DNA from: Bacteroidales bacterium
GTDB lineage: Bacteria; Bacteroidota; Bacteroidia; Bacteroidales; UBA1402
Direction of reading: 5' to 3'
NCBI GenBank assembly: GCA_028694375.1
Contig: JAQUTN010000004.1
Coordinates: 1 to 44,413 of the forward strand
DNA length: 44,413 nucleotides
Shown: piece after piece, positions 21,310 to 24,009 of the stretch
Layout: every line of letters begins with the position of its first letter
Position numbering within the stretch: the stretch's first letter is position 1
Made by a program: the position numbers and the translations under genes
The notes under the pieces: generated by a model
Databases searched by the model: none
Seen by the model: the letters and a program-made list of their open reading frames with translations, nothing else
What the model was told of the DNA's origin: nothing

Positions 21310-22848
21310 TCAAAAAGAGTTTTTAATAATAAAGCCATTATGCTCGTTGGTATATCCCACAAAAGGATAAAACGAACCTCTGTTATGCTTTAATTCCTGC
21401 CATTTTCCCTTTTTCCCCTGTACATAGAGAATACAATCATGGGGCAAACTTAAATGCAGGCTCATTTGTTCAAAAGACCAGGGTTGATCTTTGTCAAAAT
21501 ACAAAGGCTTGACTTTAATTCTGTTTCCTTCCAGCTTGACAAAATCAATAGCGTCTTCTGCCTTCATTTGAGCAATAAAGTTGTTTTTTGCCCTTAAATT
21601 CACTTTTTGGGTCATTTCGGGAGTATCACCTGTACTCAGACGGATTCTGGGGAAAACATAGAGAAACTTGTTTTCGGAGCTGCTTTTGTTGCAATAAATA
21701 AAGAAATCATCTTCGCAAGTGCATATAAACTGTTCAGGCGAAGAAAAGTCGGCTTCCATCTCAAGATAGATAGTATCTGAGGGCAGCTCCAGTACTTCGG
21801 TGTTCTGAAATTTTCCTTCGCCCCAAAATGCACGGCTGGCGAGCAAACTGCTGAAAGCGAGAACAAAAAGGGACAGTATCCAAATGGCAAGAAAGATAAC
21901 TCCCAGGTTTAACTTACGTACCCGCAGCTTAAACAACAGTACAATACCTTCGTACAAGAATAATAGCAAGGGTACAAAGACGGCAATCAGTGTCAACACC
22001 TTAAACCAGATCAAACCCGGGTGCAATGGCAACAAGCCCAGATAGCCAAACCAATCAGCAGGTATATCCCAGAAATACAACAACATAGGCAAAACCAACA
22101 AGCCGGTGGCTCCGATCAAAATCAGCACAATACTTACAAAGACCCTGAAGAAACTGAGTAAGAAACTGCCCAGAGATGAATTCCCCGATTCTCTGTAATT
22201 CGTTTCGGATTGATTCCCCATGTCGTGCACAACCCTGCGGGCTGAGCTTCGTCCCCCTTTCATGGCTCTTTTTTCCTGCGGTGTGCGCGCCATTGGCACC
22301 ACTATCCACATGATAAAATACATAATAAAAAGAAAGCTGGCAAAACCTCCCATTCCGAACAGCCTAAAATGTACGTGATCATCAATATTCCAACGGAAAC
22401 TAATCATTCCTATCACAACAAAAATCACATACAAGAGACGCAGGCCAACAGGATCAATACCAAAATATTCGCCCATGCCGCTGAAGACTCCACCCAGCAC
22501 CTTGCGTTCAGCACTGCGATACAATCGTTTTGAACTCCGGGTGTAATTACTGCTTTCGCCGGATTCAGTCTTGCCTGCCGAGGCAGCTTGTTCTCCGAAG
22601 TCGGGTAAATTCAGCGATTCGATGGCTTGTTGTATCTGTTTCTCGTCCACAACCTGATCGATTGACTTTATACAATCTGACAAGTACTCCCCTATGCGGC
22701 TTTCGATGTCCTGAACACGCTGATCAGCATCAGTTTCTTTTTCATAATAGGCCTTGAGCTGGTCCAGAAAATTTTCCAGCAAAGCATAAGCCTCCTCGTT
22801 CAAGGTAAAGGCCCAGCGACCTATGCTTACTTTAATTACATTTTTCAT
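21310..22848 (-). CDS. Large PspC-domain membrane protein
   Basis: A 512-residue membrane protein. Residues 1-90 are a cytoplasmic-looking domain (VSIGRWAFTLNEEAYALLENF, VQDIESRIGEYLSD) homologous to the N-terminus of the first gene of this operon. A PspC domain follows at about 107-190 (RLYRSAERKVLGGVFSGMGE), with an insertion between its two hydrophobic segments. Three more hydrophobic stretches lie at about 220-330. The last 160 residues are soluble and strand-rich, possibly extracytoplasmic. PspC proteins respond to envelope stress in Proteobacteria; a similar role here is inference. It overlaps padR by ATGA and is the last gene before a strong terminator. Confidence 0.82.
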   Translation of the reverse strand: MKNVIKVSIGRWAFTLNEEAYALLENFLDQLKAYYEKETDADQRVQDIESRIGEYLSDCIKSIDQVVDEKQIQQAIESLNLPDFGEQAASAGKTESGESSNYTRSSKRLYRSAERKVLGGVFSGMGEYFGIDPVGLRLLYVIFVVIGMISFRWNIDDHVHFRLFGMGGFASFLFIMYFIMWIVVPMARTPQEKRAMKGGRSSARRVVHDMGNQSETNYRESGNSSLGSFLLSFFRVFVSIVLILIGATGLLVLPMLLYFWDIPADWFGYLGLLPLHPGLIWFKVLTLIAVFVPLLLFLYEGIVLLFKLRVRKLNLGVIFLAIWILSLFVLAFSSLLASRAFWGEGKFQNTEVLELPSDTIYLEMEADFSSPEQFICTCEDDFFIYCNKSSSENKFLYVFPRIRLSTGDTPEMTQKVNLRAKNNFIAQMKAEDAIDFVKLEGNRIKVKPLYFDKDQPWSFEQMSLHLSLPHDCILYVQGKKGKWQELKHNRGSFYPFVGYTNEHNGFIIKNSF

Positions 22849-23192
22849 TGATTTGGGGTATTACGAATTATTTCTATACTATCAATAATTTCCTTCCAGG
22901 TCACATCCAGTTCAGAGAGCATTTCCCTTCCCTTGTCAGTGATGCTGTAATATTTCCTGGGAGGCCCTTGCGGAGATTCCTCCCAACGATAATTCAGCAA
23001 ACCCTGATTTTTTTGCCTGGTAAGCAGGGGATATAAGGTCCCTTCCACCACAATCATACTGGCATCTTTAAGAATTTTGATCAGGGAAGATGCATATTCA
23101 TCCCCTTTGGACAAGATGGACAAAATGCTGTATTCCAGGATCCCCTTTCTCATCTGAGCCTTAACATTGTCTGTATTTATCTCCTGGTTCAT
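22845..23192 (-). CDS. PadR-family transcriptional regulator
   Basis: A 115-residue winged-helix repressor of the short PadR type. MRKGILEYSILSILSKGDEY (about 14-33) is the first helix region, VVEGTLYPLLTRQKNQGLL (about 48-66) the recognition helix, and GPPRKYYSITDKGREML (about 76-92) the wing. The C-terminal dimerisation helix is WKEIIDSIEIIRN. It is sandwiched between two PspC genes with 4-nt overlaps at both ends. It probably binds the perfect dyad at 23835-23859 in the operon promoter (autoregulation, inferred). Confidence 0.92.
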   Translation of the reverse strand: MNQEINTDNVKAQMRKGILEYSILSILSKGDEYASSLIKILKDASMIVVEGTLYPLLTRQKNQGLLNYRWEESPQGPPRKYYSITDKGREMLSELDVTWKEIIDSIEIIRNTPNQ

Positions 23193-23761
23193 TTCTCTGA
23201 TTGTTTAGCTGAATAACGCAATAAATTTTCGGCCGTTACCGGAAGCCCCTGCATTTGGAGTTTTTGAGCAGGAGTCCTGGCGTCTTGCACACATATCCAC
23301 AAAATGATGTACACCCAAAACGACAAAAATCCCAAAATCATACCCAATAAAAACAAGATCCTCAATAGAGTGGCATCTACGCCTAAATAGGCTCCCAGAC
23401 CTCCGCAAACGCCACCTATCTTACGATCATCGGGATTGCGGAAAAGCCTGCGTGAGGCTCCTCTTTTGTTCGATGTATATGGCACGTGGTATTCCGTGAA
23501 ATCATTGCTGCCATCGGGCATACCCATGCGGGCTACGACCTGTCGGATAAGGCCTTCGCCCACTACCTGATTGGGAGAACTGATTTCTTCACGAAGAATT
23601 TCGGCAATACGGGCTTCTATATCGTCCATTATTTCCGACACATCTTCGGCCTCTCCCAACTTGATCTTAAATTGTTCAATGTAATCCTGCAAAATACGGC
23701 AGGCATCCTCTTCCATCTGAAAAGAATAGCCTCCAATCCCTTTTGAAACGACTTTTTTCAT
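23189..23761 (-). CDS. Small PspC-domain membrane protein
   Basis: A 190-residue protein with an N-terminal domain (about 1-90: GIGGYSFQMEEDACRILQDY, IMDDIEARIAEILREE, NQVVGEGLIRQVVARMGMP) and a C-terminal PspC domain (about 100-165: RRLFRNPDDRKIGGVCGGLG, then two hydrophobic helices ending WICVQDARTPAQK). It is the first gene of the operon and a paralogue of the N-terminal half of the 512-residue gene at the operon's end. Probably an inner-membrane protein. Function unknown beyond the PspC name. Confidence 0.88.
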   Translation of the reverse strand: MKKVVSKGIGGYSFQMEEDACRILQDYIEQFKIKLGEAEDVSEIMDDIEARIAEILREEISSPNQVVGEGLIRQVVARMGMPDGSNDFTEYHVPYTSNKRGASRRLFRNPDDRKIGGVCGGLGAYLGVDATLLRILFLLGMILGFLSFWVYIILWICVQDARTPAQKLQMQGLPVTAENLLRYSAKQSEK

Positions 23762-23816: not shown

Positions 23817-23847
23817 CAAATATAATGTAGTATATAGTACTATGCAA
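23817..23847 (-). promoter_or_regulatory. Promoter of the PspC-PadR-PspC operon
   Basis: On the minus strand TTG (23847-23845), a 20-nt spacer and TATATTTG (23824-23817), a full match to the Bacteroidota promoter. The leader is about 50 nt. The -33 TTG lies in the centre of the dyad at 23835-23859. Confidence 0.75.
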
Positions 23848-23859
23848 TACATAGTACTA
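23835..23859. promoter_or_regulatory. Perfect dyad operator, probable PadR site
   Basis: Arms TAGTACTATG (23835-23844) and CATAGTACTA (23850-23859) are perfect 10-bp inverted copies around a 5-nt centre, CAATA. The dyad covers the -33 element and part of the spacer of the operon promoter, so a bound dimer would block RNA polymerase. PadR sites are dyads of this general size; assignment to this PadR is inference. Confidence 0.65.
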
Positions 23860-23897: not shown

Positions 23898-23934
23898 AAA
23901 AAAGCCCCCGGTTCCTTTTTGGACCGGAGGCTTT
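23898..23934 (-). terminator. Rho-independent terminator of tRNA-Gln
   Basis: A GC-rich stem (23901-23914 with 23921-23934, core AAGCC-x-CCGG / CCGG-x-GGCTT with one mismatch) is followed on the minus strand by a six-U tract (23903-23898). It begins 5 nt beyond the tRNA 3' end. Confidence 0.8.
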
Positions 23935-23938
23935 TTGG

Positions 23939-24009
23939 TTGTCTCACGAAGATTCGAACTTCGACAGGCAGAACCAAAATCTGCAGTGCTACCATTACAC
24001 CATGAGACA
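23939..24009 (-). tRNA. tRNA-Gln (anticodon UUG)
   Basis: A 71-nt cloverleaf including the discriminator base. The acceptor stem TGTCTCA / TGAGACA is perfect and starts with U1, as usual for tRNA-Gln. The anticodon stem is GCAGA / TCTGC with loop TTTTGGT, so the anticodon is TTG. The T-arm carries GTTCGAATC and the D-arm GGTGTAATGGTAGC. CCA is not encoded. It lies downstream of tyrS with its own promoter and terminator. Confidence 0.96.

Follow-up and report, generated by a model that had tools for sequence, protein, structure and literature searches.

Background

HAAS-PadR-like wHTH systems were described in mSystems in 2024 (PMC11237479), in a study that drew its proposal of a HAAS-PadR coupling from neighbouring genes and domain architectures and that nowhere uses the word "operator". 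PadR proteins contact DNA through two tyrosines (PMC6457526), and several members of the PadR-2 subfamily offer points of comparison with the locus studied here. LltR, LstR and LftR of Listeria are PadR-2 repressors of transmembrane-protein or transporter operons, as proposed below for our PadR, and LltR and LstR mainly control their own operons (PMC6624303, PMC6457526); however, they belong to Firmicutes, and their operator and promoter context is unlike that of our site. For cdPadR1 of C. difficile, another PadR-2 protein, EMSA showed that binding to its own promoter requires TACT(N11-12)AGTA, and this operator (box 3/4, TACTATGTATTATTATAGTA) overlaps promoter elements in the manner of the site reported here (PMC5050560). 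cdPadR1 has two boxes and, in the excerpted text of that report, is not linked to HAAS-PspC proteins, whereas in our site the arms are perfect and the spacer is fixed and carries a Bacteroidota -33 TTG. The closest solved structure to our PadR is that of BF2549 of Bacteroides fragilis (PDB 5h20; Lee 2017, as cited in PMC6457526).

Here we analyse a stretch of 44,413 nucleotides of contig JAQUTN010000004.1 from a Bacteroidales bacterium (the window). No earlier description of the operator presented below was found for Bacteroidota in the literature searched. The system is known and so is the operator class; the phylum-wide operator, its overlap with the promoter and the regulon members appear undescribed in the same literature.

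Results

The locus comprises three minus-strand genes in the order HAAS-PspC (PspC1), PadR and PspC (PspC2), and both junctions are ATGA overlaps (Table 1), in agreement with the gene order and overlaps given in the initial annotation. We regard these three genes as the complete operon because the next gene beyond is convergent. PspC domains (PF04024) are present in both PspC1 and PspC2, the latter also carrying LiaI-LiaF-TM (PF22571); the proteins that the initial annotation named PspC are HAAS-PspC proteins of the described system. PspA and PspF are absent from the three-gene operon, so that it does not qualify as a classical Psp operon. Its likeness to the HAAS-PadR systems lies in a stand-alone PadR wHTH gene coupled to membrane-protein genes, in a HAAS with the GxP motif in the partner (PspC1, at a score below the cut-off), and in fused PspC and LiaI-LiaF-TM sensor domains. 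The operon is a HAAS-PadR system as defined in PMC11237479, to which the present analysis adds the operator, its overlap with the promoter and more regulon members.

The HAAS match of PspC1 scores 20.6 bits, under the Pfam cut-off of 27; the protein carries GMP as its HAAS GxP motif, and HAAS was recognised in 21 of 28 PspC1 orthologs. The N-terminus of PspC2 is homologous to PspC1 but has NLP in place of GxP, with HAAS matches in 21 of 39 PspC2 orthologs. The C-terminal beta domain of PspC2 (residues 343-477, predicted strands) is without any Pfam match, unlike that of most orthologs, and the toastrack family PF22744 is matched by 31 of the 39. A Foldseek comparison of the PspC2 model with the PDB gave no match below E 1, a weak test, PspC2 being a membrane protein whose model has a pTM of 0.55.

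The model of the window PadR (pLDDT 94) consists of a wHTH and one C-terminal helix (H7-27, H34-43, H50-62, E66-73, E76-84, H86-111), and the protein has the features that define the PadR-2 subfamily, namely about 110 residues with this architecture. Comparison with PDB 5h20 gave E 3e-38 in sequence and Z 15.5 in structure, with 59% identity over 103 residues, and BF2549 and the window PadR probably belong to the same PadR group. Y33 and Y54, the signature DNA-contact tyrosines, are invariant across 34 PadR sequences.

Upstream of the operon, the dyad TAGTACTATG-CAATA-CATAGTACTA (23835-23859) has perfect 10-bp arms and a 5-nt spacer, as the initial annotation had recognised within a longer span, 23817-23859, that takes in the -7 box as well as the dyad. 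No other perfect dyad with arms of at least 10 bp and a spacer of 3-10 nt occurs in the window. Since a first-order Markov control (20 runs) gave an expectation by chance of 0.15 such dyads in the window (mean; maximum 1), the dyad alone is only mildly unusual, and the weight rests on its conservation. In the coding (minus) direction it reads TAGTACTATG-TATTG-CATAGTACTATATACTACATTATATTTG, and on closer inspection the core is a near-palindrome of 9+1+9, TACTATGTA-T-TGCATAGTA, in which a single pair, T8/G12, breaks the symmetry. G12 creates the TTG; full symmetry would read TTA. The combination of TTG and TAnnTTTG is the promoter type of Bacteroidota. The TTG had been placed exactly at the centre of the dyad; it does lie within the spacer, but it starts at the central base (23847-23845) and is not strictly centred. 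The second promoter element, TATATTTG, was located where it had been reported, 20 nt further on (23824-23817). A second, overlapping dyad, TAGTA-N5-TACTA, situated between operator and -7 box, was not retained as a candidate, since the sister species lack it.

An inverted repeat whose 10-bp stem could pair might also act in RNA, as a terminator or attenuator hairpin. This is extremely improbable here, since the dyad is upstream of the -7 element, hence outside the transcript, and has no T tract; in relatives, moreover, its distance is fixed to the -7 element and not to the gene, and the upstream tRNA-Gln already has a terminator-like hairpin of its own.

Table 1. Positions of the operon, its promoter elements and related sites (window coordinates unless a contig or locus is named).
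Feature	Position	Strand	Remarks
PspC membrane protein 2 (PspC2)	21310..22848	-	512 aa; HAAS-like N-terminus, PspC, LiaI-LiaF-TM, C-terminal beta domain
PadR-2 family predicted repressor	22845..23192	-	115 aa; PF03551 E 2.4e-18; ATGA overlap with both neighbours
HAAS-PspC membrane protein 1 (PspC1)	23189..23761	-	190 aa, first gene; PspC PF04024 E 9e-21; HAAS PF22564 E 6e-4
-7 element TATATTTG, consensus TAnnTTTG	23817..23824	-	20 nt from TTG
Candidate PadR operator	23835..23859		On minus strand TAGTACTATG-TATTG-CATAGTACTA; TACT-N11-AGTA core; conserved ahead of orthologous padR genes
-33 element TTG	23845..23847	-	Within dyad spacer; TTG in 31/36 aligned sites, fixed spacing to -7 element
Terminator-like hairpin of upstream tRNA-Gln	23899..23936	-	Between tRNA-Gln (23936-24009) and operon
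Extra site, this genome	C31:12115-12139		Followed by -7 element and 66-aa PspC (E 1.5e-22), lone pspC
Extra site, this genome	C20:2719-2743		Ahead of ABC ATPase and MacB/FtsX-type permeases
Exact site outside Bacteroidota/Chlorobiota	L094		Corynebacterium; PadR
Exact site outside Bacteroidota/Chlorobiota	L171		Aestuariibacter; PadR, then HAAS gene
Exact site outside Bacteroidota/Chlorobiota	L170		Enterorhabdus; PadR
Exact site outside Bacteroidota/Chlorobiota	L124		Pirellulaceae MAG; PadR
Exact site outside Bacteroidota/Chlorobiota	L162		Gracilibacterium; PadR visible only with TGA=Gly, E 1e-43; HAAS-PspC behind
PadR of L162	L162:2245-2640	-	Open only under table 25 (TGA=glycine)
HAAS-PspC of L162	L162:1677-2231	-	Open only under table 25 (TGA=glycine)

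PadR orthologs were collected blind to the motif, 30 loci coming from relatives and 29 from a phylum-wide draw (n=59). Allowing up to 4/19 mismatches, the 19-bp core TACTATGTATTGCATAGTA was found upstream and on the same strand at 25 of the 30 relatives' loci and 11 of the 29 phylum loci (36/59 in total), and at none of the 59 downstream of PadR; palindromes with permuted arms and the spacer kept scored a mean of 0.00 and a maximum of 1. The initial annotation had proposed a search for the dyad upstream of orthologous PadR-PspC operons, where its absence would have spoken against the operator; the dyad proved to be conserved across Bacteroidia, and this refuting outcome did not occur. A recognisable site was absent near the gene at L010, L023, L029 and L031 among the relatives' PadR loci, one of which adjoins a run of N. 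At most of the remaining phylum loci, the corresponding position before the -7 element is occupied by the variant TACTATGYAAAACAAGATAC. This variant is that of the Flavobacterium-like loci L201-L215, where only a degraded right arm is left and the central TTG is lacking, and the PadRs of these loci are about 57% identical to the window PadR. When the arms were held constant and any spacer was allowed, the spacers recovered phylum-wide were chiefly TATTG, TGTTG or TTTTG. As the N5-spacer pattern with 3 mismatches occurs at background level in single genomes, loose scans were not used.

The site also accompanies the gene. A 21-bp version (up to 3 mismatches) was detected in 26 of 36 relatives with a close PadR and in 0 of 24 without one (n=60, Fisher p 4e-9). 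PadR itself occurs in single copy in 93 of the 98 members of class Bacteroidia sampled in the draw, and in none of the draw's other 297 genomes, at E 1e-20. Many protein families bind symmetric sites, and in principle a DNA-binding protein unrelated to PadR could recognise the dyad; we deem this very improbable, given that the site follows padR from family to family and from phylum to phylum, even into a lineage that uses a different genetic code, and that relatives without padR are also without the site.

When the 36 sites were aligned, the central TTG was present in 31, TAnnTTTG lay 19-21 nt past the TTG position in 35, position 8 was T in 34 and position 12 was G in 32, where symmetry would demand A. 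We infer that a single-base change has fitted the PadR palindrome to act as a -33 element, and PadR binding and polymerase entry would therefore be mutually exclusive. That PadR activates or fine-tunes the promoter from this site instead of repressing it seems improbable, because the site sits over the -33 element itself with fixed spacing, and PadR regulators of transmembrane-protein operons in Listeria repress their target promoters 17- to 77-fold (PMC6624303).

An exact 19-mer scan over 84,980 species, one genome each, yielded at least 117 sites, against about two chance exact matches expected in the whole collection from a base-count estimate. Among the matches listed, 111 are labelled Bacteroidota or a subgroup, one Chlorobiota, and five fall elsewhere (Table 1). 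Of the listed sites, 103 are followed by 700 bp of sequence or more, and at 89 of these PadR lies downstream on the same strand; 84 of the 89 were taken from the ORF table, which missed five (L094, L108, L111, L142, L166) because the ORF ran into the dyad. TAnnTTTG is found 19-21 nt past the TTG at 106 of the 117 listed exact sites. The five listed sites outside Bacteroidota and Chlorobiota are all among the 11 without this spacing, and all five adjoin a PadR gene.

This genome has two additional occurrences of the site that keep its spacer (Table 1). One stands ahead of a lone pspC, the other ahead of an operon for a MacB-like ABC transporter, and the earlier description of the module as self-contained was thus too strong. 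The 66-aa PspC at the first of them fell under the 80-aa ORF cut-off. That site was also considered as the promoter of a minus-strand thioesterase, a candidate rejected because the orientation of the TTG and the -7 element face the PspC. When the lone pspC promoter of this genome (L216) is compared with that of a sister species whose PspC is 89% identical (L217), the two align well except for a clean 28-bp gap in the sister species that corresponds to the operator. Judging from alignments, the extra operator sites are labile between sister species. The 28-bp gap is flanked by TATA repeats, which fits palindrome loss by slippage or gain as a unit. At the ABC operon, the sister species (90% identical permease) is without the operator and without most of the intergenic sequence.

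Other genes follow the 19-mer in other genomes. Among the matches listed, it stands alone ahead of MacB-like ABC operons at L116, L118 and L135, precedes PadR, PspC and ABC genes in one run at L102 and L117, and has genes for secreted or outer-membrane proteins behind it at L095 and L157. In two Bacteroidia (L110 and L169), the exact operator and promoter lie directly ahead of an M50 (RseP-like) site-2 protease gene, and no PadR gene was found downstream of the site at these two loci. All these members, the protease included, would fit an envelope role of the regulon, which is not to say that they prove it.

Discussion

The identity of the dyad as the PadR operator is well supported, and so is the initial proposal of autoregulation from a site over the -33 element, both by conservation at orthologs and by the operator class, which is one bound by a PadR-2 protein. 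The window core, TACT-ATGTATTGCAT-AGTA with an 11-nt spacer, is of the class in which 11-12 AT-rich nt part an inverted TACT/AGTA, and lies in the promoter of the padR operon. The predicted binding step has the backing of experiment on a relative, cdPadR1.

The site itself, the geometry of its promoter, its conservation, its occurrence together with PadR, the other genomic sites and the protein families are observed; from these we infer a circuit made up of binding, repression, HAAS-to-PadR transmission and an envelope signal. A PadR dimer on the dyad would cover the spacer-embedded -33 TTG and shut out RNA polymerase, and PadR would thereby repress its own HAAS-PspC operon by simple autorepression. 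The HAAS-PspC membrane proteins would sense membrane disturbance and strip PadR off the DNA via the HAAS domain, and this release would raise the PspC proteins and, in this genome, the lone PspC and the MacB-like ABC exporter as well. Taken jointly, the dyad as operator of the operon's PadR, autorepression and HAAS-mediated release on membrane disturbance make up a reading that we consider likely from genome comparison.

Direct drug sensing is possible for PadR-2 proteins, and the same operator and autorepression could be combined with another mode of release, in which a small hydrophobic compound in the dimer pocket frees PadR, as in LmrR, and the PspC proteins are effectors and not sensors. 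The PadR model superposes on LmrR structures (Z about 13-15), Trp99 of PadR, which falls on LmrR Trp96 by offset at the alignment end, does not vary among 34 PadRs, and the regulon includes a MacB-like ABC transporter. We nevertheless hold such release to be rather unlikely, because HAAS-bearing membrane proteins are linked in nearly every genome, a fact that a purely soluble drug sensor leaves unexplained.

A defined operator makes the HAAS-PadR proposal a testable circuit. It also makes the putative regulon readable from genomes, with PspC proteins, MacB-like exporters, a site-2 protease and outer-membrane proteins as its candidate members. Little is known of how Bacteroidota control their response to envelope stress, and the operator provides a handle on how envelope damage may be sensed. 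In a wider and more tentative proposal, which we think conceivable but less than probable, the operator, PadR, HAAS and PspC could form an ancestral, near-universal envelope-stress switch of Bacteroidia, with an operator so constrained that its 19-mer recurs next to PadR genes in Actinobacteria, Proteobacteria, Planctomycetes and Gracilibacteria, and with promoters entering or leaving the regulon as the whole dyad is acquired or lost.

Two further observations concern operon structure. L162, with its PadR and HAAS-PspC genes behind the exact operator, places a HAAS-PadR operon within the candidate phyla radiation. In padR-first operons, an ATG lies exactly 4 nt past the -7 TAnnTTTG at 23 of 81 loci (frame checked in part), L074, L080, L081, L066, L100 and L164 among them, which suggests that the padR mRNAs of many such operons may be leaderless.
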